Source: a virus
DNA length: 24,124 nt
IMG/VR virus record: IMGVR_UViG_3300042569_001383
Coordinates: 1 to 24,124 of that record
Direction: 5' to 3' (one strand)
Below are positions 2,706 through 20,075 of this stretch, piece by piece; within the stretch, counting starts at the first letter, position 1; every line of letters starts with the position of its first letter. The translations under genes were made by a program, and so were the position numbers. The notes below the pieces were generated by a model. That model had not been told where the DNA came from, ran no database searches, and saw only the letters and a program-made list of their open reading frames with translations.

Positions 2706-3077
2706 CTAGAATTCCGAGTCAAACTCCGCGTCTAAAGCATCATCAAGTTCTTTGTTGAGTTTATCCCATTTAGTCGTTGGATCTGTTTGTTCGATAATCC
2801 AACAATGTTCTAATTCATACGCATTGCCATTTGCCGTTACTAGTTTCCATTCCGTACGTCGTGCTACGTATCGATCCGGACCGACAGTTGGTTGTGGAGC
2901 ATCGGTAGTGCCCTTTTTCTTATCACGCAACCAACATAACAATTCGGTTACATCGTTGTCAAACATGATGGTTTCGGCTGACCTAACATCAACACATGTA
3001 CAACGCAATTTGCCTCCGTACTTGTTGCTTACGTATATAAAATCTTTGCCAATGTAATCTTCTGGGTTAATCATCAT
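2706..3077 (-). CDS. Hypothetical protein, 123 aa, acidic C-terminus
   Basis: The protein begins MMINPEDYIGKDFIYVSNKY and contains a beta-rich middle (CTCVDV, WKLVTANGNAYELEHCWII). It ends in an acidic tail (DDALDAEFDSEF). No family is recognised. The first of two adjacent ATGs (3077) overlaps the upstream DPBB gene's TGA as ATGA, so translation is probably coupled. It is the last gene of its unit, ending five bases before a consensus promoter. Confidence 0.75.
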   Translation of the reverse strand: MMINPEDYIGKDFIYVSNKYGGKLRCTCVDVRSAETIMFDNDVTELLCWLRDKKKGTTDAPQPTVGPDRYVARRTEWKLVTANGNAYELEHCWIIEQTDPTTKWDKLNKELDDALDAEFDSEF

Positions 3078-3412
3078 TTTATAGGTGTTACTGTTACATG
3101 TGCTTTGCCTTGCGAATGTGGAGCAATGTGTCCAAAAGCAGCATAGCTTAAATCTATTCGGTTAGGTGACTTTACACCCATTCGGTCCGTTACACGTACG
3201 GTGCAACACGCTGAGGTCGTGACATTTCGTATCTCTAATCTGGTTCCTAATGCAACATGATTGTAAGCGGCTGTCAATGAATCTCGATGCATCCTTGTAC
3301 CCGAAGCGGTGCGACTGCCGTGCATATCATACCAAGTAGCCACACAAGGCGTAGCAGGTGCAGACAATATGGCAGTCGCAATGTATAATAATAATGCTAT
3401 CATTTTACCCAT
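3074..3412 (-). CDS. Secreted RlpA-like double-psi beta-barrel protein
   Basis: An N-terminal signal peptide (MIALLLYIATAILSAPA) precedes a roughly 85-residue domain matching the RlpA/DPBB fold: ATWYDMHGSRTASGT (25-39), LTAAYNHVALGT (46-57), VRVTDR (72-77) and RIDLSYAAFGHI (85-96). RlpA proteins bind or cleave peptidoglycan glycan strands. The Asp of the VTDR motif is kept (D76). The acidic residue usual after TASG is a Thr, and the usual His in TAAH is Tyr, with a His two places later, so lytic activity is uncertain. An internal ATG at 3403 overlaps the upstream TGA as ATGA and starts precisely at the signal peptide; it may be the true start. The adjacent two-helix membrane gene suggests a role at the envelope, perhaps in lysis or entry. 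Confidence 0.8.
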   Translation of the reverse strand: MGKMIALLLYIATAILSAPATPCVATWYDMHGSRTASGTRMHRDSLTAAYNHVALGTRLEIRNVTTSACCTVRVTDRMGVKSPNRIDLSYAAFGHIAPHSQGKAHVTVTPIK

Positions 3413-12790: not shown

Positions 12791-12811
12791 AACTTGTTCT
12801 TTCTGTTTAAG

Positions 12812-12885
12812 TGGACCAGCCTGGACTCGAACCAGGGACCGGCGCGTTATGAGCGCGCTACTCTAACCAACTGAGCTACAGGTCC
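12812..12885 (-). tRNA. tRNA with anticodon CAT (Met or Ile2)
   Basis: The cloverleaf is complete: acceptor GGACCTG/CTGGTCC (one T-T mismatch), D-arm GCTC/GAGT, anticodon stem GCGCG/CGCGC around CTCATAA, T-arm CCTGG-TTCGAGT-CCAGG. The anticodon CAT could be elongator Met or lysidine-modified Ile. CCA is not encoded. Confidence 0.92.
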
Positions 12886-13056
12886 AAATTGCTTGTCTTT
12901 CCAAGCTACCAATAAAATAAAAAACACGCTCTTAAGCATTCTACTCCCAGCTCCGAGGAATTGTATATAACTTAGCCCGATACTCACCGCTGTACAGGTA
13001 CTTAGGTTTGCGTGTTTGCGATCCATGTTCTGATTTCGGGATGAATCTTTCCCACG
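12886..13056 (-). other. 171-base inter-tRNA spacer, no clear gene
   Basis: No tRNA signature is present. One minus-strand ATG frame from 13026 reads MDRKHANLSTCTAVSIGLSY and runs into the neighbouring tRNA, so I do not accept it as a gene. A degenerate tRNA or a small RNA is possible. Confidence 0.4.
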
Positions 13057-13151
13057 TAGTCAGGACAGGATTCGAACCTGCAATGTACTTTGCTAACCTC
13101 TTGTAACCGGCTACATTCCCTAGTTAAGCGTTACCATTCCGCCACCTGACT
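13057..13151 (-). tRNA. Aberrant class-II tRNA-like gene, anticodon unassigned
   Basis: The acceptor AGTCAGG/CCTGACT is perfect. The D-arm (GCG/CGC) and T-arm (GCAGG-TTCGAAT-CCTGT) are good and resemble tRNA-Leu. The 45 bases between D- and T-arms give no normal 5-bp/7-base anticodon arm. Competing stems exist (CTA/TAG, TAACT/GGTTA, TAGCC/GGTTA, AATGTA/TACATT). It may be a damaged, interrupted or repurposed tRNA. Confidence 0.65.
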
Positions 13152-13209
13152 ATTTAAAACTTGTAAAACCCACCCCATGGCAAGGAAACTCCGTTTCGTG
13201 TTTTTTGCG

Positions 13210-13293
13210 TACCCCAGGCGGGACTTGAACCCGCACGAGCATAATGCCCACTGAATTTTAAGTCCAGCGTGTCTACCATTCCACCACCGGGGC
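13210..13293 (-). tRNA. tRNA-Leu (TAA)
   Basis: Class II tRNA: acceptor GCCCCGG/CTGGGGT, anticodon stem CTGGA/TTCAG around CTTAAAA, long variable arm, T-arm GCGGG-TTCAAGT-CCCGC. It reads TTA and TTG codons. CCA is not encoded. Confidence 0.95.
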
Positions 13294-13451
13294 AAATGGC
13301 AATTTAATTGATTAGATCTCACGAAGCATTGCCAACTCCGAATGAAGAACGATTTACGGCTTTACTTCAATGATTCCCGCCTTTGTCTCACGCCCAAAAG
13401 TATGTCGAAAGGTTTCTGGGATACCTATAACCTCAAGTAATCATCTTGTAG
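13294..13451 (-). other. 158-base inter-tRNA spacer with hairpin potential
   Basis: No tRNA is found. The plus-strand segments TCCC, CCTTT, AAAGG and GGGA (about 13374-13420) can pair as a nested hairpin. A minus-strand frame with protein-like content (EVIGIPETFRHTFGRE) lacks any start codon, so no gene is called. Confidence 0.35.
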
Positions 13452-13524
13452 TAGCGGGGGCGGGACTCGAACCTGCGACCTTCAGGTTATGAGCCTGCTG
13501 AGCTACCAACTGCTCTACCCCGCT
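13452..13524 (-). tRNA. tRNA with anticodon CAT, initiator-like scaffold
   Basis: Acceptor AGCGGGG/CCCCGCT, D-arm GAGC/GCTC, anticodon loop CTCATAA, T-arm GCAGG-TTCGAGT-CCCGC. The overall sequence resembles bacterial initiator tRNA (GCGGGG, GAGCAG..GGTAGCTC, GAAGGTCG). It lacks the 1:72 mismatch and three G-C anticodon-stem pairs, so initiator, elongator or Ile2 identity is open. Confidence 0.92.
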
Positions 13525-13530
13525 ATATTG

Positions 13531-13602
13531 TATTCCCACGGAGAATCGAACTCCGATTTTTAGGTTGAAAACCTAATGTCCTAACCGTTAGACGATGGGA
13601 AC
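13531..13602 (-). tRNA. tRNA-Glu (TTC)
   Basis: Acceptor GTTCCCA/TGGGAAT, anticodon stem TTAGG/CCTAA around TTTTCAA, T-arm CGGAG-TTCGATT-CTCCG. Its first 22 bases also encode the last codons and stop of the upstream homing endonuclease gene. Confidence 0.95.
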
Positions 13603-14243
13603 TCATATAATCTTATAAAATCTTTACCATATGTTGAAATGACATACTCAAATTCTTTTTTTAAGTCATCTCGCATCAAAACAACCAAATTTGGTACTGA
13701 TTTTATCTTAGCTAAAGTTTGTTCGTTTACAAAACCTTTTATTTCAATTATCTTGACACCTTGAACGAAATCCGGATAATACTGATATTGTTTTCCATTA
13801 AATGTATACTCGTATGATTGAGTGTTTCTACTAAATGGAATATCATGATCCAGTTGATATATTACCCAAGCTAACTCATAACTGCTATCACACCAAATAC
13901 CTTTATACCAACCATGTTTACCTCTTCCAGCACCTTTTCGATTACCGCCAGAACATTTAATCCAACATTCTGCATGATACTTTTTTATTTTGTATTTAGA
14001 AGTACCAGGTTGATTACAATATTTACATATAAAATTTTGAACCGCAGACCCTTTCCATCCAGGATGTAGTTGTCCAAATTTACCTTTATTAGTAGCACAT
14101 TTTGGATTTCCTTTATTAGCAAGACTTTTTTTTAATCTTACTGCATCATTTTGTACTCTACTATTTCTACATTTCAAAGAACAATATGAAACCAATCCTT
14201 TCGTTGGTTCAAAATCATTGCCACATTTCTTACATGTTTTCAT
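13581..14243 (-). CDS. EDxHD-type (PD-(D/E)XK) homing endonuclease with zinc knuckles
   Basis: The 220-residue protein opens with a Cys4 knuckle (C4, C7, C21, C25), then a basic linker and a second Cys/His cluster (C73, C76, H90, C93). The nuclease domain shows CDSSYELAWVIY (E123), FSRNTQSYEYTFNG, YYPDFV (D158) and EIKGF (E167, K169), the set I associate with EDxHD homing endonucleases related to Vsr-like nucleases. The C-terminus overlaps tRNA-Glu, whose D-loop supplies the stop codon. A consensus promoter, an ATATTTATAA leader element and a Shine-Dalgarno AAAGGAG precede it. It is likely a free-standing mobile gene inserted in the tRNA array. Confidence 0.88.
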   Translation of the reverse strand: MKTCKKCGNDFEPTKGLVSYCSLKCRNSRVQNDAVRLKKSLANKGNPKCATNKGKFGQLHPGWKGSAVQNFICKYCNQPGTSKYKIKKYHAECWIKCSGGNRKGAGRGKHGWYKGIWCDSSYELAWVIYQLDHDIPFSRNTQSYEYTFNGKQYQYYPDFVQGVKIIEIKGFVNEQTLAKIKSVPNLVVLMRDDLKKEFEYVISTYGKDFIRLYEFPSSNG

Positions 14244-14256
14244 ATAACTCCTTTAT

Positions 14257-14266
14257 TATAAATATA
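14257..14266 (-). promoter_or_regulatory. TATATTTATA leader element, copy 1
   Basis: TATATTTATA (minus strand) is followed by ATAAAGGAG and the endonuclease ATG at 14243. The same element precedes the GIY-YIG gene and the 44-codon ORF. Read on the plus strand it is TATAAATATA, like a T4 late promoter box, but nothing is transcribed that way here. Confidence 0.5.
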
Positions 14267-14290
14267 GAGTCGTACCCGTAATTTTTAATT

Positions 14291-14324
14291 ATTATAAGAA
14301 ATATTTTGAAAATATCCAACCGTT
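14291..14324 (-). promoter_or_regulatory. Phage promoter, TTGGAT-N17-TATAAT
   Basis: The -10 is at 14291-14296 and the -35 at 14314-14319, with a 17-bp spacer and AACGG upstream. It drives the EDxHD endonuclease and probably the tRNA genes from Glu onward. Confidence 0.8.
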
Positions 14325-14340
14325 GTTGATATTCTCTCTG

Positions 14341-14412
14341 CGGTCCATGCGAGAATCGAACTCGCGGCACCACCGTGACAGGGTGGTATGTTAGCCACTA
14401 CACCAATGGACC
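14341..14412 (-). tRNA. tRNA-Asp (GTC)
   Basis: Acceptor GGTCCAT/ATGGACC with G73, anticodon loop CTGTCAC in a CCACC/GGTGG stem, T-arm GCGAG-TTCGATT-CTCGC. All arms pair well. Confidence 0.95.
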
Positions 14413-14457
14413 ATTAATAAAAGTCCCCTATCGGTTATAGGATCTTTAAGACTTTTG

Positions 14458-14531
14458 TGGAGCCGGTGGGAATCGAACCCACCACAGATTGCTTGCAAAG
14501 CAGTCTCGTCAGCCTTGAGACATACAACCCC
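14458..14531 (-). tRNA. tRNA-Ala (TGC)
   Basis: The acceptor is GGGGTTG/CGGCTCC with G-U wobbles. The anticodon stem ACTGC/GCAAT surrounds TTTGCAA, and the T-arm is GTGGG-TTCGATT-CCCAC. The D-arm is atypical (GTCTC/GAGAC). Confidence 0.88.
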
Positions 14532-14537
14532 ATTATG

Positions 14538-14610
14538 AGCGATAGACAGGGTTCGAACCTGCGACCCCCGACTTGGAAGGACGGTGCTCTACCATCTGAG
14601 CTACTATCGC
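14538..14610 (-). tRNA. tRNA-Gly (TCC)
   Basis: Acceptor GCGATAG/CTATCGC with T73, anticodon loop CTTCCAA, T-arm GCAGG-TTCGAAC-CCTGT. Its 5' end directly touches the stop codon of the small ORF upstream. Confidence 0.94.
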
Positions 14611-14754
14611 TTAAAAACCATACGACATAAATTGTCTATACATAATATGTTCTTCCTGGCACGCACATTCCGTTAACGTACCTTGAAATAAAATCGAATT
14701 ATCTGACAACGCAATCAATTGATATGTGTCATTAATTAAATGTCTAATTTCCAT
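14611..14754 (-). CDS. Small hypothetical protein, 47 aa, within the tRNA array
   Basis: The product begins MEIRHLINDTYQLIALSDNS and continues ILFQGTLTECACQEEHIMYR. It looks like a compact mixed alpha/beta protein with no known family. The TAA abuts the first base of tRNA-Gly. A consensus promoter lies 20 bp upstream, so this gene leads the unit containing tRNA-Gly, -Ala and -Asp. I chose the ATG at 14754, which sits just after AAAGAG; a longer frame would run back through the promoter. Confidence 0.7.
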   Translation of the reverse strand: MEIRHLINDTYQLIALSDNSILFQGTLTECACQEEHIMYRQFMSYGF

Positions 14755-14774
14755 CTCTTTATTTTTATACTTTA

Positions 14775-14806
14775 AATATATAAAATAAATCAATCGAATC
14801 CAACCT
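14775..14806 (-). promoter_or_regulatory. Phage promoter, TTGGAT-N17-TATATT
   Basis: The -10 variant TATATT is at 14775-14780 and the -35 at 14798-14803, with a 17-bp spacer. It is an internal promoter of the tRNA array. Confidence 0.75.
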
Positions 14807-14827
14807 TTTTGTTACTTTTTTTTTTTG

Positions 14828-14899
14828 AGCTTAAGGAGGGACTCGAACCCCCATACCGAGATTTTGCAGACCTGGACCTTACCAATCGGACACTTAAGC
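14828..14899 (-). tRNA. tRNA-Cys (GCA)
   Basis: Acceptor GCTTAAG/CTTAAGC with U73 (the usual Cys discriminator), anticodon loop CTGCAAA, T-arm GGGGG-TTCGAGT-CCCTC. The anticodon stem has one mismatch. Confidence 0.93.
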
Positions 14900-14904
14900 A
14901 TTTG

Positions 14905-14977
14905 TGGACCGGGAGGGAATCGAACCCCCGACACGAAGATCTTCAATCTCCTGCTCTACCAACTGAGCTACCGGTCC
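14905..14977 (-). tRNA. tRNA-Phe (GAA)
   Basis: Acceptor GGACCGG/CCGGTCC, D-arm GCTC/GAGC, anticodon stem GGAGA/TCTTC around TTGAAGA, T-arm GGGGG-TTCGATT-CCCTC. Confidence 0.95.
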
Positions 14978-14983
14978 TTGTTG

Positions 14984-15056
14984 CACTCCAGGATGGGTTC
15001 GAACCACCGACACCCGGATTTGGAATCCGGTGCTCTACCAACTGAGCTACTGAAGT
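14984..15056 (-). tRNA. tRNA-Trp (CCA)
   Basis: Acceptor ACTTCAG/CTGGAGT with G73, anticodon stem CCGGA/TCCGG around TTCCAAA, T-arm GGTGG-TTCGAAC-CCATC. The CCA anticodon means TGA is not read as Trp by this tRNA. Confidence 0.95.
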
Positions 15057-15080
15057 ATGTAATAAACCTAATTTTGCTTT

Positions 15081-15101
15081 ACTATACCTAGTTGGTATAG
15101 T
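15081..15101. other. Perfect 8-bp hairpin between tRNA-Arg and tRNA-Trp genes
   Basis: ACTATACC and GGTATAGT pair around a 5-base loop. No T-run follows on the minus strand, so it is not a standard terminator; a tRNA-processing or regulatory stem is possible. Confidence 0.5.
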
Positions 15102-15123
15102 GTCGCAATTTTTTATTTTATCG

Positions 15124-15196
15124 TACCCTCGCAGAGATTCAAACTCCGATTCCATCATTAGAAGTGATGTGTCCTATTCCGTTGGACGACGAAGGC
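15124..15196 (-). tRNA. tRNA-Arg (TCT)
   Basis: Acceptor GCCTTCG/CGAGGGT with wobbles, D-arm GTCC/GGAC, anticodon stem CATCA/TGATG around CTTCTAA, T-arm CGGAG-TTTGAAT-CTCTG. It reads AGA and AGG. Confidence 0.93.
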
Positions 15197-15201
15197 AATT
15201 G

Positions 15202-15273
15202 TACTCCGTAAGTGATTCGAACACCTATCTTCCGGTTCGTAGCCGAACGTTCTATCCATTGAACTAACAGAGC
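15202..15273 (-). tRNA. tRNA-Arg (ACG)
   Basis: Acceptor GCTCTGT/ACGGAGT, anticodon stem TTCGG/CCGGA around CTACGAA, T-arm AGGTG-TTCGAAT-CACTT. It reads CGN codons after A34-to-inosine editing. Confidence 0.94.
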
Positions 15274-15422
15274 AAGTAAAGATGATGAATGACTTTATCA
15301 GGAATCTTGGCTTGGAAGCCTTCACACACCATTAGAGAGCTGAGTATTGCTACTTATCCTTAGTGTGTACCCTTGCGACACGTCTCTCCACGCTTGCCAT
15401 TCTACGCTTCGTAACATCTTTG
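15274..15422 (-). other. 149-base inter-tRNA spacer with paired segments and a weak ORF
   Basis: ACACAC (about 15323) can pair with GTGTGT (about 15363), and GGCTT/AAGCC forms a small hairpin near 15309. A 31-codon minus-strand ORF (15322-15417, MLRSVEWQAWRDVSQGYTLR..) begins five bases after the 3' end of tRNA-Leu(TAG). I give it low weight because it has no ribosome-binding context. Confidence 0.35.
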
Positions 15423-15503
15423 TACCTCGGGAGGGACTTGAACCCTCACACCTTTCGGCAACGGTTTCTAAGACCGCCGTGACTACCATTCCACCACCAA
15501 GGC
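15423..15503 (-). tRNA. tRNA-Leu (TAG)
   Basis: Class II tRNA: acceptor GCCTTGG/CCGAGGT, anticodon stem GCGGT/ACCGT around CTTAGAA, variable arm TGCCGAAAGGTGT, T-arm GAGGG-TTCAAGT-CCCTC. It reads CTN codons. Confidence 0.95.
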
Positions 15504-15510
15504 ATATTTG

Positions 15511-15584
15511 GGTGTATGACGGGATTTGAACCCGTGACCTCTTGAATCACAATCAAGCACTCTAACCAACTGAGCTACATACAC
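15511..15584 (-). tRNA. tRNA-His (GTG), no encoded G-1
   Basis: Acceptor GTGTATG/CATACAC with C73, anticodon stem CTTGA/TCAAG around TTGTGAT, T-arm ACGGG-TTCAAAT-CCCGT. The base at -1 is T, whereas bacterial tRNA-His genes normally encode G-1 opposite C73. Confidence 0.94.
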
Positions 15585-15586
15585 AG

Positions 15587-15656
15587 TATCGTATATTGGG
15601 TTCGAACCAATCGAGAGCGGGATATGAGCCTACCCTGTCCACCCAGGACCTACGAT
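15587..15656 (-). tRNA. tRNA with anticodon CAT (Met or Ile2), compact
   Basis: Acceptor ATCGTAG/ATACGAT (six pairs plus a G-A mismatch), short D-arm CCTG/CAGG, anticodon loop CTCATAT, T-arm ATTGG-TTCGAAC-CCAAT. At 70 bases it is the smallest of the set. It is the third CAT tRNA, so one of the three probably decodes ATA. Confidence 0.85.
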
Positions 15657-15662
15657 ATATTG

Positions 15663-15748
15663 AGGAAAGCATTGGAATCGAACCAAATACCTTTGCAGGT
15701 ACACATTGCTTAGCAGGCAAGCCCTATCGCCATCAAGGTTTACTTTCC
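15663..15748 (-). tRNA. tRNA-Ser (GCT)
   Basis: Class II tRNA: acceptor GGAAAGT/GCTTTCC, anticodon loop CTGCTAA in a CTTGC/GCAAT stem (one mismatch), variable arm, T-loop TTCGATT. The discriminator is U rather than the usual Ser G. Confidence 0.92.
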
Positions 15749-15753
15749 AATTG

Positions 15754-15827
15754 TGCGTCTAACTGGACTCGAACCAATAACCTTCCGCGTATCAGGCGGA
15801 TGCTCTAACCAATTGAGCTATAAACGC
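15754..15827 (-). tRNA. tRNA-Ile (GAT)
   Basis: Acceptor GCGTTTA/TAGACGC, D-arm GCTC/GAGC, anticodon stem TCCGC/GCGGA around CTGATAC, T-loop TTCGAGT. It reads ATT and ATC. Confidence 0.94.
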
Positions 15828-15833
15828 ATTGTG

Positions 15834-15908
15834 CTGACCAGGTAGGACTCGAACCTACTATCCTCGGCTTAACAGGCCGTAGCTATATACCACTTAAGCT
15901 TCTGGCCA
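15834..15908 (-). tRNA. tRNA-Asn (GTT)
   Basis: Acceptor TGGCCAG/CTGGTCA with G73, anticodon stem ACGGC/GCCGA around CTGTTAA, T-arm GTAGG-TTCGAGT-CCTAC. Confidence 0.94.
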
Positions 15909-15914
15909 ATATTG

Positions 15915-15995
15915 TGGAAGTGGTAGGGTTCGAACCTACACGCCTTTCGGACTTGATTTACAGTCAAGCGAGCCAGCCAATTGCTCAACACTTCC
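15915..15995 (-). tRNA. tRNA-Tyr (GTA)
   Basis: Class II tRNA: acceptor GGAAGTG/CACTTCC, anticodon stem CTTGA/TCAAG around CTGTAAA, short variable arm TCCGAAAGGC, T-arm GTAGG-TTCGAAC-CCTAC. Confidence 0.95.
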
Positions 15996-16000
15996 AATTG

Positions 16001-16073
16001 TACACCCTATAGGATTCGAACCTATGACATTTGCCATGTAAGGGCAATGCTCTACCAATTGAGCTAAAGGTGC
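16001..16073 (-). tRNA. tRNA-Val (TAC)
   Basis: Acceptor GCACCTT/AGGGTGT, D-arm GCTC/GAGC, anticodon stem TTGCC/GGCAA around CTTACAT, T-arm ATAGG-TTCGAAT-CCTAT. Confidence 0.95.
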
Positions 16074-16078
16074 ATTTG

Positions 16079-16149
16079 TGATCCTGGACGGTAATGATCC
16101 GTCTTCCCCAAATTAAAAGTTTGGTGCATCACCTTAATGCTTCAGGATC
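16079..16149 (-). tRNA. tRNA-Lys (TTT), unusual T-loop
   Basis: Acceptor GATCCTG/CAGGATC and anticodon stem CCAAA/TTTGG around CTTTTAA are perfect. The D-arm is GCAT/ATGC. The T-arm is GACGG-ATCATTA-CCGTC, so the T-loop lacks the usual TTCRA start. Confidence 0.88.
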
Positions 16150-16158
16150 TTTCGTTTT

Positions 16159-16172
16159 GCGATACTTATCGC
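16159..16172. other. 6-bp palindromic hairpin after the GIY-YIG gene
   Basis: GCGATA and TATCGC flank a 2-base centre. It lies between the endonuclease stop and tRNA-Lys. No T-run follows, so it is at most a weak processing or pausing signal. Confidence 0.3.
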
Positions 16173-16206
16173 TCTTGTCACTTTCCATAATTGATCCTTT
16201 TTAACT

Positions 16207-16863
16207 TTAATACTTCCTACCTTTAATCCAACCTAATAACTGAAATTCATTAAATTCGGTTACTTTAATTTTTTTATTCTCAATTCCATTTGTTATCCAA
16301 CAGGTACCAAATTGTGAATTATTCGATCCCACGCAAGTTCCTTTTTTTGCTTCTGACATTTTCTTTTTTGTTTCACTTGAATGTGTCATATTAGTAAAAT
16401 TTCCTTTATGTAACTTAAAATATTCGGTTAATGATTTACTCATATTTTCTCTATATTTTTTAGTTAATTTAGTTTTAGCTAAGTTAGCTAGCCGTTTCTT
16501 TTTACTGTTAATTAAATTAAGTTTCCCAGCATTTATAAAAGCAGATTTATGTTCGTTTGAACTAAATCCTCCATGTCCGCCTTCTTTTAAATTCAAACAC
16601 TTTGAATCTTTAAGGATTTCTTCATTAACTAATTCACGTTCTCGAACTGCTAACAATTCTCTGTCAGGTAAAAATTCTAAGATTTCGCATTTAAAATTTT
16701 CTTTACCATACTTTCGAACCGAATACCATAATCGTTTACCACTACCAATATATCCGTCATTCAACTCGTTTGTCGAATGCATTCCGATATAATACTTACC
16801 GTTTATTAAACATGTAGTTTTATATATAAAATGAAATTTTTTTTCCTTATTGAAGTTTGCCAT
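16207..16863 (-). CDS. GIY-YIG homing endonuclease (Seg-like)
   Basis: The 218-residue protein has the GIY-YIG core: FIYKTT (12-17), KYYIGMHST (23-31), DGYIGSGKRLWYSV (36-49), KYGKENF (51-57) and the acidic RERELVNEE segment (74-82). The C-terminal half is basic with DNA-binding repeats (KKKMSEAKKG, a GSNNSQFGTCWITNG block and LLGWIKGR) typical of phage free-standing endonucleases. It interrupts the tRNA array between tRNA-Lys and tRNA-Pro. The leader has the same ATATTTATAATAAA sequence as the EDxHD gene. Its base composition is more AT-rich than neighbouring genes, in line with recent gain. Confidence 0.92.
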   Translation of the reverse strand: MANFNKEKKFHFIYKTTCLINGKYYIGMHSTNELNDGYIGSGKRLWYSVRKYGKENFKCEILEFLPDRELLAVRERELVNEEILKDSKCLNLKEGGHGGFSSNEHKSAFINAGKLNLINSKKKRLANLAKTKLTKKYRENMSKSLTEYFKLHKGNFTNMTHSSETKKKMSEAKKGTCVGSNNSQFGTCWITNGIENKKIKVTEFNEFQLLGWIKGRKY

Positions 16864-16873
16864 ATTCTTTTAT

Positions 16874-16883
16874 TATAAATATA
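16874..16883 (-). promoter_or_regulatory. TATATTTATA leader element, copy 2
   Basis: The element lies 10 bases before the GIY-YIG ATG and is followed by ATAAAAGA. It is shared with the EDxHD gene and the 44-codon ORF. Confidence 0.5.
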
Positions 16884-16910
16884 TACTACAAATTCCAAAC
16901 AGGAACATGG

Positions 16911-16983
16911 TCTAAATGGTAGGACTCGAACCTACGATCTCAGCATCCCAAATGCCGCGGATTACCAACTTTCCCACATCTAG
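16911..16983 (-). tRNA. tRNA-Pro (TGG)
   Basis: Acceptor CTAGATG/CATTTAG, anticodon stem CGGCA/TGCTG around TTTGGGA, T-arm GTAGG-TTCGAGT-CCTAC. C1 is unusual but pairs with G72. Confidence 0.92.
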
Positions 16984-16987
16984 TTGT

Positions 16988-17033
16988 CAACTGTGTAGCA
17001 ATTGCAAATTACTTTTTGTATAGCGCACAGTTG
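16988..17033. other. 8-bp hairpin between tRNA-Ser(TGA) and tRNA-Pro
   Basis: CAACTGTG (16988-16995) and CACAGTTG (17026-17033) are perfect complements with a 30-base loop. No tRNA fold is apparent. It may be a processing stem or the relic of a removed tRNA. Confidence 0.4.
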
Positions 17034-17042
17034 CTCGCTTTG

Positions 17043-17126
17043 AGGAAGAAGTAGGTGTCGATCCCAATACCTTGCAGTACCACCCGCTTTCAAGGCGGAG
17101 TCACAGGCCGCTGTGATTCATCTTCC
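17043..17126 (-). tRNA. tRNA-Ser (TGA), unusual T-loop
   Basis: Class II tRNA: acceptor GGAAGAT/TTCTTCC (one mismatch), anticodon stem TCCGC/GCGGG around CTTGAAA, long variable arm. The T-arm TGGG-ATCGACA-CCTA starts with A instead of T. It reads TCN. Confidence 0.88.
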
Positions 17127-17133
17127 ATTTTTG

Positions 17134-17207
17134 TTGCCCCGGGAGGAGTCGAACCTCCAAACTCCACAGTCAAAGTGTGGTGACTTTGCCAATTCGTCTA
17201 CAGGGCA
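17134..17207 (-). tRNA. tRNA-Gln (TTG)
   Basis: Acceptor TGCCCTG/CGGGGCA, anticodon stem CCACA/TGTGG around CTTTGAC, T-arm GGAGG-TTCGACT-CCTCC. Confidence 0.95.
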
Positions 17208-17245
17208 TTGTATGGCCAATATGTCAATGAACTCATGTTCTTTTG

Positions 17246-17318
17246 AGCTTTGAGAGGGACTCGAACCCACAACCTCATCATTACAAGTGACGTGCACTAC
17301 CAATTGTGCTATCAAAGC
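17246..17318 (-). tRNA. tRNA-Thr (TGT)
   Basis: Acceptor GCTTTGA/TCAAAGC, D-arm GCAC/GTGC, anticodon stem CGTCA/TGATG around CTTGTAA, T-loop TTCGAGT. It is the first tRNA of the array, just after the terminator. Confidence 0.95.
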
Positions 17319-18016: not shown

Positions 18017-18580
18017 TTATTTAATGATTGTGATGTGACCGTGTATAGATATGCGTTCATCTGAATTTAAAATGCCAAAGTTTATATACCAGATATATAC
18101 TCCATCCGATACCATTTTGCCATTGTACGTGCCATCCCATGTAGCTGCAGAATCAAAACTTTGCCAAATTACGTTGCCCCATCGATTCACAACAATTAAA
18201 TTGAAATCCATGGCATCGAACGCGCCATTAAACACCGGACCCCATGTTGTATTGAATTCATCGCCATTCGGTGTAAAAGTATTTGGAACCCAATATACCA
18301 AATCATCACACTCTTTCACAGTTACCGTAATGGTTTGTGGAGATCCTGGACAATTGTTTGCCACAGGTGTCGCTGACAATGTATACACGCCTGGAGTGTC
18401 CCATGTAATGTTTACGGAGTTTCCATAATAATACTGCGAATTTAACTCCCATTCAATAGTACTAGCAATGTTTGATTGTGTTGAATATGTGTATGTTGCT
18501 GTATCATCGCATAATTCTACCGTCTGTTGCGAGAATAGCCATAATGGCATCCATATTAATATGTACGTGATGAACCGCAT
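18017..18580 (-). CDS. Secreted protein with T9SS type B (gliding-motility) sorting domain
   Basis: From the ATG at 18580, the 187-residue product has a signal peptide (MRFITYILIWMPLWLFSQQ; cleavage before QQ fits the Q-rule). A PKD-like beta domain follows (about 24-90). The C-terminal domain matches the type B sorting signal: VPNTFTPNGDEFN (98-110), DFNLIVVNRWGNVIWQS (125-141), WDGTYNGKMVSDGVYIWYI (148-166) and a terminal IHGHITIIK. In Bacteroidota this domain directs outer-membrane export by T9SS. The ATG overlaps the upstream stop as TAATG; a longer in-frame start only adds antisense-like residues. Confidence 0.88.
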   Translation of the reverse strand: MRFITYILIWMPLWLFSQQTVELCDDTATYTYSTQSNIASTIEWELNSQYYYGNSVNITWDTPGVYTLSATPVANNCPGSPQTITVTVKECDDLVYWVPNTFTPNGDEFNTTWGPVFNGAFDAMDFNLIVVNRWGNVIWQSFDSAATWDGTYNGKMVSDGVYIWYINFGILNSDERISIHGHITIIK

Positions 18581-19134
18581 TAGTTGTGTTGTATTGGGGT
18601 TAATACTGGTATTGAATTTACTTGAACGTTGCTGGTTGTGGTGAATGTACAACCACTTTGCGTGTATGTATATGTTACGATGCTATTAGATACACCCGGA
18701 CAATATTGTGTACCTGACACTCCAACACCAGACCAAGCACCTCCAATTGGCGTGGCTGTTAATGCAACACATGGATCATTTGCACAAAATGGGCCTATAG
18801 GTACAATTGTGGGAGTGACTTGATATATTAATACATTGAGTGTAACTGGCGCTGATACGCATCCAATGGCATTAGTAAATGATACAGATACTGCATTGTT
18901 AATTAATCCTGCGGGACATGCTGACCAATTAACTGATATGCTAGTTGTTCCTTGACCCGCAACTAATGTTGCACATGTAGGTATTGTCCATGTATACGTT
19001 CCTGCCCCTACCGATGGTATTGTGTATGTGGATAACGTGTTGGTTTGATAGCATACGGTATCCGGATTTGTTGTTAGTTGTGACCAAGCCATGCTTGATA
19101 TTAACATTGCGGCAATAAATAATAAACGTTTCAT
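18580..19134 (-). CDS. Secreted beta-rich protein, Ig/PKD-like repeats
   Basis: The 184-residue product starts with a signal peptide (MKRLLFIAAMLISSMAWSQ, ending SQ). Thr/Val/Cys-rich strands follow that resemble the PKD-like repeats of Bacteroidota surface proteins (TYTWTIPTCATLVAGQG, AVSVSFTNAIGCVSAPVTLN, GAWSGVGVSGTQYCPG). It ends PVLTPIQHN, close to the PVLGVISHN end of the upstream protein, but has no T9SS domain itself. A clear Shine-Dalgarno (AAAGGAG) precedes it. It probably acts with the sorting-domain protein encoded next. Confidence 0.8.
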   Translation of the reverse strand: MKRLLFIAAMLISSMAWSQLTTNPDTVCYQTNTLSTYTIPSVGAGTYTWTIPTCATLVAGQGTTSISVNWSACPAGLINNAVSVSFTNAIGCVSAPVTLNVLIYQVTPTIVPIGPFCANDPCVALTATPIGGAWSGVGVSGTQYCPGVSNSIVTYTYTQSGCTFTTTSNVQVNSIPVLTPIQHN

Positions 19135-19143
19135 AGTTCTCCT

Positions 19144-19740
19144 TTAATTGTGACTGATAACTCCTAGTACTGGTGTTGATGCATTAATGGTGCCGTTAAA
19201 CACGGTTAATGCATTTACAGCATCACATGAGTTGCTAGTATAACTTCCCCATAATCCATCTGGACCGGCAGTAACTTGAATCAATAAACTTTGAGGTGTG
19301 CATGCATTTGCTACAGTTAATGTTACACAAAAAGTCCATGTACATGAACCAGAATCGCCAAAATCGTTGCCTGGATTGCCATCTGTAGTTAAATCAAAAA
19401 AGTATCCTGGGCCTACTGTTACAATGGGAGTTGTGGTTGATGTAACGGAAGTACGCCATACCCATTGCCCTCCGGAACCATTTCCTCCACAATTAGCAGG
19501 AGCAGTTTGTGGTGCAACCGATGCCCACCCAGCGCCCAATGTTAAATCGAATCCTTCTATCCAATTGGTTCCTGCCTGCGAATACCCTGTCATGGTATAA
19601 CACATTGTTACTGTTTGTCCTGGTAAATAAGTTCCAGCTGTTGCTTGAGGTGTCAATGTAAATGATTGCGTTCCGGCACATTGCGATACTGCGTAATTGC
19701 ATAACATTAAACATACTATTAATAACCATTTCATATACAT
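19144..19740 (-). CDS. Secreted beta-rich protein, first of a three-gene cassette
   Basis: The 198-residue product has a signal peptide (MKWLLIVCLMLCNYAVSQ; Met1 or Met3 may be the start). A Gly/Thr/Cys-rich beta domain follows, with QSFTLTPQATAGTYLPGQ, TVTMCYTMTGYSQAG, NWIEGFDLTLGAGW and FDLTTDGNPGNDFGDSGS. The pattern (expected-accretion of 'TVTMCYT', 'CTWTFCVTLTV') is that of N-terminal domains of large Bacteroidota cell-surface proteins with C-terminal T9SS signals. Here the domain is a separate gene. It ends PVLGVISHN, like its neighbour. Nine bases separate it from the next gene. Confidence 0.8.
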   Translation of the reverse strand: MYMKWLLIVCLMLCNYAVSQCAGTQSFTLTPQATAGTYLPGQTVTMCYTMTGYSQAGTNWIEGFDLTLGAGWASVAPQTAPANCGGNGSGGQWVWRTSVTSTTTPIVTVGPGYFFDLTTDGNPGNDFGDSGSCTWTFCVTLTVANACTPQSLLIQVTAGPDGLWGSYTSNSCDAVNALTVFNGTINASTPVLGVISHN

Positions 19741-19745
19741 AAATA

Positions 19746-20075
19746 TTATTCCACAATTTTTTCTACATATGTACAGGTTTCACCAGCATCGAACCCCTTT
19801 TCCAATAACAATGGTAACGATGCAGGCTTGCACCACGCATACACTAAATAGCCCCGGAATTTAGATTGTACGTAGTCCCAACGTGCATCCCACAACATTC
19901 GAAAGATTCCTTTACGGCGATGGTCTTCATGTACCCACGCATCCAGGAATTTGATTTTTTCATTTTCTTCTCGTTCCATGTAGATGTGTCCTACAATGTC
20001 TCCGTTCACCATGGCGATCCATGTCTCGAGACGTTGAGCATTGCTCTTAAGATGTATTATTTTAATGTCTTCCAT
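19746..20075 (-). CDS. GNAT-family acetyltransferase
   Basis: The 109-residue protein begins MEDIKIIHLKSNAQRLETWI. It shows the GNAT core: GDIVGHIYM strand, FLDAWVHEDHRRKGIFRMLW (motif A with RRKGI at 53-57 for acetyl-CoA binding), and the C-terminal VYAWCKPASLPLLLEKGFD, the usual 'N/C-x-x-A-x-x-L-Y-x-K-x-G-F' helix. The substrate is unknown. It is short but complete. Its ATG overlaps the stop of the upstream gene (TAATG). Confidence 0.85.
   Translation of the reverse strand: MEDIKIIHLKSNAQRLETWIAMVNGDIVGHIYMEREENEKIKFLDAWVHEDHRRKGIFRMLWDARWDYVQSKFRGYLVYAWCKPASLPLLLEKGFDAGETCTYVEKIVE

Follow-up and report, generated by a model that had tools for sequence, protein, structure and literature searches.

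Three consecutive genes, here called A, B and C in the order in which they follow one another, lie on the minus strand of the window (the whole stretch of DNA that was analysed), which spans bases 1-24,124 of a virus record of 144,950 bases. The features of the locus are as follows.

19739..19746, minus strand: late-promoter-like element, ATATTTAT, 4 nt before the likely start of gene A
19144..19740, minus strand: gene A as an open reading frame, 198 aa
19144..19734, minus strand: gene A from its conserved start, putative secreted tip subunit, 196 aa (reading frame, alignment and model)
19147..19152, minus strand: His-Asn at the exact C-terminus of A, invariant in 23 of 23 aligned A proteins
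18580..19134, minus strand: gene B, putative secreted spacer or adaptor subunit with two Ig-like domains, 184 aa (reading frame, PF19408 and model)
18838..19074, minus strand: PKD_6 domain of B, residues 21-99
18583..18588, minus strand: His-Asn at the C-terminus of B, present in 17 of 18 aligned B proteins, with His-Asp in the other
18578..18582, minus strand: TAATG, in which the B stop and the C start overlap by one base, as in most relatives
18017..18580, minus strand: gene C, putative secreted anchor subunit with a PKD-like domain and a type B T9SS sorting domain, 187 aa
18023..18289, minus strand: type B T9SS sorting domain of C, residues 98-186

Alignment with relatives suggests that the true A start is at 19734 (MKWLL..., 196 aa). 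The earlier note had described three coupled genes, each opening with a signal peptide that ends in SQ, the first two of which share a PVL-x-x-I-x-HN ending, and the sequence agrees with it on each point: A and B are separated by 9 bp (19135-19143) and B and C are joined by TAATG, the signal peptides end in ..AVSQ (A), ..AWSQ (B) and ..LFSQ (C), and A and B terminate in TPVLGVISHN* and PVLTPIQHN*, respectively. As judged by eye, the Sec signal peptides obey the Q-rule in all three proteins and across relatives. A glutamine at the end of the signal peptide follows the general Q-rule of Bacteroidota (PMC5837995), and the SQ ending is as such a general trait of that group, not one peculiar to the cassette.

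The full type B sorting domain claimed for the last gene is recovered, and the lack of a model match that the earlier note named as one refutation is thereby excluded, as C exceeds the cut-offs of both TIGR04131 (E 4.4e-12, 46 bits against a cut-off of 35, model positions 3-84 of 85) and PF13585 CHU_C (E 1.7e-13, 50.9 bits against 27). A search with PKD models likewise upheld the suggestion of PKD-like content, B matching PF19408 PKD_6 (E 2.4e-9, 37.8 bits against a cut-off of 25), and the first domains of B and C are homologous to one another and PKD-like (hhalign probability 96.8, E 2e-10). No match to A was found in Pfam, NCBIfam or PHROGs, and the PHROGs search matched no part of the cassette to a known phage family. 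Neither A nor B matched TIGR04131, TIGR04183, PF13585 or a PF18962-type model, so that each is without a type A or type B C-terminal domain (CTD) of its own; by sequence they are not T9SS cargo, and they may work as part of one. SprB repeats (PF13573) were sought in the three proteins of the window and not found. AlphaFold models both A (pLDDT 87) and B (pLDDT 91.8) as beta-sandwiches whose C-terminal tails form an extended coil. Against the PDB the fold of A returns generic, weak beta-sandwich matches (the best being 9ifr, CLIPPER, at E 8e-4 and TM 0.34/0.51), and it also resembles a viral prediction annotated as a GEVED domain-containing protein from Virus NIOZ-UU157 (33% identity), while the B model resembles GhpA (TM 0.53 at best) and other Ig-type adhesion modules. 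The alignments also contain seven invariant cysteines in A and three in C, odd numbers that leave room for a disulphide between subunits.

The phage origin given in the earlier note is confirmed by the remainder of the record, which is the 145 kb genome of a T4-like myovirus with a tail sheath (phrog_23), portal (phrog_213), major head protein (phrog_138) and terminase (phrog_2), and which also encodes GroEL. As judged by capsid, the nearest isolate is Flavobacterium phage vB_FspM_immuto, whose major capsid protein is 57% identical along its full length and whose host is Flavobacterium sp. LMO8, and the hosts of this large T4-like virus are Flavobacterium-type bacteria. No cassette is present in immuto, either in the stretch from thyA to the thioesterase gene or in that from sheath to hub, and a tblastn comparison of A, B and C with 50,697 phage records matched uncultured records only and no isolated phage; these two results argue that the module is accessory.

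Among uncultured viruses the cassette is widespread. Scans of IMG/VR yielded 57 A loci, 147 matches to the B profile and 445 matches to the C profile. The same split arrangement was sought in other phage contigs and found throughout, well in excess of what chance would give, B and then C lying downstream of all 57 distinct A genes that have at least 1.3 kb of downstream sequence (these counts are of distinct sequences, not independent isolates). Among relatives there is little variation in gene length or at the B/C junction. The cassette occurs in at least four genomic settings, including the thyA/GNAT/thioesterase neighbourhood seen in the window, a stretch running from the tail tube gene to a baseplate-hub-like gene, and two more. 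Some neighbours are themselves of note. Genes for secreted proteins precede the cassette at L192:2473-4932 and L194:2484-4934, where type A T9SS domains are found below the cut-off, and at L198:2277-4493, where a thermolysin family model matches in part; in the phage group that includes L065 and L064, a gene for a family 16 glycosyl hydrolase (L065:6728-7444, E 8e-15) directly follows the cassette.

The three-gene form has counterparts in which the same parts are joined. In cells, as the earlier note had supposed, the corresponding product is one polypeptide: of six cellular ORFs with an A domain, five encode single proteins of 845-1714 aa that carry this domain as their N-terminal region and a type B CTD at the end, the sixth (in L074) being cut by the contig end. 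The A domain is rare in cells, occurring in 2 of the 396 Bacteroidota genomes that were sampled, of which the seed genome is one, and B-type domains are common there (173 of 295). Phages also carry fused homologues of 466-819 aa, a few of which end at a contig edge, with an N-terminal head followed by B-type and C-type domains in one chain, and two uncultured phages of 635 and 642 kb carry long fused ORFs of 732 and 1670 aa. Fused and split forms can occupy equivalent positions; the flanks of fused L014 match those of split L010 and L018, with two flanking proteins at 74-87% identity, the flanks of fused L009 match those of split L022, L057 and L062, and the flanks of fused L013 match those of split L033 and L023. 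A tree of the C domain, built quickly and with long branches, groups 68 of 69 split sequences in a single clade (SH-aLRT 97) that lies within fused phage proteins, with L069 a long outlier, and the split/fused label requires 2 changes against a shuffled mean of 23. A single origin of the split form is likely from this topology.

Within the split form, the conserved ends of A and B and the exchange of whatever protein precedes B are the most informative characters. The terminal His-Asn is encoded by varying synonymous codons in both A and B, and no such tail is found at the matching junctions of the fused proteins. At loci without A, the gene directly before B encodes another secreted protein of 262, 322, 349-353 or 490 aa, and these non-A tip proteins also end in [P/G]xIxH[N/D] or a close variant of it. 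The substitutes contain an ALK/LTK glycine-rich domain or SprB repeats, the latter present in tips L188 and L196 as well as in fused L007, and weak fn3-like or galactose-binding-like stretches are added in two longer tips that contain A. On the C-domain tree, tip type changes at least six times. Several other explanations of the tail were considered and set aside. A nucleotide constraint of overlapping genes is rejected on account of the varying codons and A-B distance, isopeptide ligation through the terminal Asn/Asp on account of the lack of a conserved Lys in the mature proteins, and an intein-like reading was dropped, as no Hint domain was found and the stop codon follows directly. HN-tailed split genes were also looked for in cells, and the idea was rejected: a 30-base B-tail pattern occurred in 1 of 396 Bacteroidota genomes, at a locus without the cassette. 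A stricter form of the pattern matched 65 viral contigs.

Given the HN tails, the tip exchange, the PKD-like domains shared by B and C and the extended-coil form of the tails, it is reasonable to postulate a modular docking code, in which the IxH[N/D] tails of subunits without a sorting signal of their own would dock on the PKD-like domain of the next subunit, one CTD anchor would export the three-part complex, and phages would exchange tips by a swap of the first gene. The homologous first domains of B and C would be a natural common receptacle for such tails. We put this code forward tentatively and judge its chances to be somewhat short of even. If true, subunits would leave through the T9SS by piggyback, and the virus would display a structure of several subunits on the surface of its host.

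The timing of expression can be approached through the element upstream of A, which overlaps the stop codon of the GNAT gene. The motif [AG]TATTTAT lies immediately ahead of the start in 51 of 61 distinct A genes, as against 1 of 69 B genes and 1 of 70 C genes, and before about half (9 of 19) of the fused genes. In this genome it precedes the sheath, tube, portal, baseplate-region and GroEL genes and is not found in the first 13 kb, and in immuto a TATTTAT core precedes the terminase, gp20, sheath, tube, hub and tape-measure genes. Because of its position before structural genes in both phages, the motif looks like the late promoter of this clade of T4-like Flavobacterium phages, and the cassette is probably a late operon. 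As the element ends about 4 nt before the A start codon, the cassette mRNA is perhaps leaderless, and the other genes that start 4-6 nt after the element suggest leaderless mRNAs as well. The virus record (G000) contains 44 [AG]TATTTAT sites on the coding strand, for example at 92637, 90108, 113544 and 29278.

We consider the cassette to be a late, phage-encoded, three-subunit surface adhesin that is shown by way of the host T9SS, and assign a probability of roughly 0.6 to this reading. A single A-B-C mRNA would be made from the putative late promoter, and each protein would pass through Sec and lose its signal peptide to signal peptidase. Once in the periplasm, the tip, be it A or a substitute, would dock on B, and B on C, each contact presumably joining the extended IxH[N/D] tail of one subunit to the PKD-like first domain of the subunit that follows, such that the docked subunits would rebuild the linear adhesin that the fused homologues make as one chain. 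The type B CTD of C would then carry the assembly through the host SprA translocon, A and B leaving the cell by piggyback on C, an arrangement that fits the fused homologues. To our knowledge, there is no precedent for the export of a CTD-less protein that rides upon a partner. No PorP/SprF shuttle gene (PF11751) was found in this genome or in 14 other phage records, some of which may be incomplete, and the idea of a phage-borne shuttle was rejected on these 15 records; the same model finds eight PorP_SprF genes in a host MAG. A PorP/SprF-like shuttle is required by type B substrates and is frequently encoded alongside them, and orphan substrates exist (PMC12618676, PMC9143113). As no phage shuttle gene was found, C is presumably an orphan substrate that borrows a host shuttle, and a host PorP/SprF-type protein would anchor the assembly on the surface or on the gliding track, where the swappable tip would bind an outside ligand. 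The most likely purpose would be to occupy or mask the surface to which phages adsorb, with less superinfection and less progeny lost on spent cells as the result; another would be to fix infected cells to neighbours or particles. The change of motility that the earlier note proposed may be a further effect. That the cassette is common to many aquatic phages suggests a remodelling of the surface of cells that are about to burst.

An alternative is that only C is exported and that A and B act in the periplasm, for example upon the envelope or in lysis, their link with C being one of operon economy. The restriction of the T9SS CTD to C is what such a division would predict. However, the fused homologues at equivalent loci place head, B-type and C-type domains in one exported chain, and the host A-domain proteins are single chains of type B cargo, and we regard a periplasmic role for A and B as unlikely. 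Slightly less probable still is that C is a decoy, which competes for the host T9SS translocon or SprF-like shuttles and so depletes the gliding adhesins that other phages use as receptors, with A and B secondary. The lack of a shuttle in the phage records examined is in keeping with this, as are the reports that phages can adsorb by way of gliding and T9SS surface proteins, mutation of which gives resistance (PMC13288928), and that the SprB CTD delivers cargo to the gliding machinery (PMC12618676). For jamming, however, a CTD alone would be enough, yet A and B are always kept; the diversified tips argue for ligand binding over mere export jamming, and late expression would come late for a role in exclusion. 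Very improbable, in our estimation, is a virion component that decorates the tail or capsid: the late-promoter-like element and the location between tail tube and baseplate hub in one phage group are as expected of one, but Sec signal peptides and an outer-membrane export signal are not, the genomic position varies among four settings, and the related isolate immuto makes virions without the cassette. A single host gene broken into three frames, or an artefact of assembly, which the earlier note had named as what would overturn its reading, might be entertained given the single-chain cellular A-domain proteins, but is excluded for practical purposes by the recurrence of this split, with its gene lengths, overlaps and HN ends, across dozens of distinct contigs and by the diversity of the split clade.

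The surface adhesin proposed here has clear relatives among host proteins. SprB and Fjoh_3952 of Flavobacterium johnsoniae and PG1035 of Porphyromonas gingivalis share with the cassette a Sec signal peptide, Ig/PKD-like domains and a TIGR04131 C-terminal domain, and SprB repeats are common to SprB and some phage tips and fused forms. Each host type B adhesin is one chain, and a PorP/SprF gene often lies next to its gene, whereas the cassette is phage-borne, comprises three chains with HN tails, and has no shuttle gene that we could find. The C profile also matches the C-terminal CTD end of GhpA, the grappling-hook adhesin of Aureispira (9flp, E 3.6e-13); unlike the cassette, GhpA is one chain of 5898 residues, and the likeness seen is one of sequence and fold. 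Phage T5 encodes a superinfection-exclusion surface protein, Llp, which may have a purpose in common with the cassette, namely the blocking of further phage binding; this comparison is by description only, Llp being a small lipoprotein and the cassette product a multi-subunit, T9SS-displayed protein. Phage proteins with a host export signal, like C, have been described in a Cryophage cargo with a type A T9SS domain (PMC7468147) and in the crAss-BACON ORF (PMC6949934), each a single protein, and the portions of these two descriptions consulted contain no split cassette, HN tail or tip exchange.

Beyond these two reports, a literature search for phage-encoded type B or gliding-associated domains returned nothing, and a split, HN-tailed, tip-swapping type B cassette appears undescribed in the literature searched. 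There, phage genes with T9SS signals have so far been noted in passing, as single proteins; what emerges from this analysis is a widespread, conserved and probably late phage module whose three secreted chains appear to reconstitute an adhesin of host type. Were the assembly confirmed, it would mean that the T9SS is able to export a multi-protein complex on one signal, would furnish surface display in Bacteroidota with a short docking tag, and would give phages of gliding aquatic bacteria a concrete route by which to alter the surface of the infected cell.

Several other features of this phage were observed. An array of 23 tRNA genes occupies 12811-17318 of the window and is broken by two ORFs (13581-14243 and 16207-16863) that are homing endonuclease-like by eye, both with the late-promoter-like element just upstream. 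A small protein encoded at 3074-3412 is related to the RlpA family (TIGR00413, E 1e-11, below the cut-off) and may act on the envelope. A second secreted protein, of 422 aa, is encoded at 32759-34027 of the virus record (L077:12759-14027), with a CUB match (E 8e-8) and weak F5/8 type C matches; the idea that it is a second T9SS cargo was dropped, as it matches neither TIGR04183 nor any other T9SS domain. At about 44,800-54,000 of the record (L078) lies a run of ORFs that, by eye, resemble glycosyltransferases and sugar-modifying enzymes.
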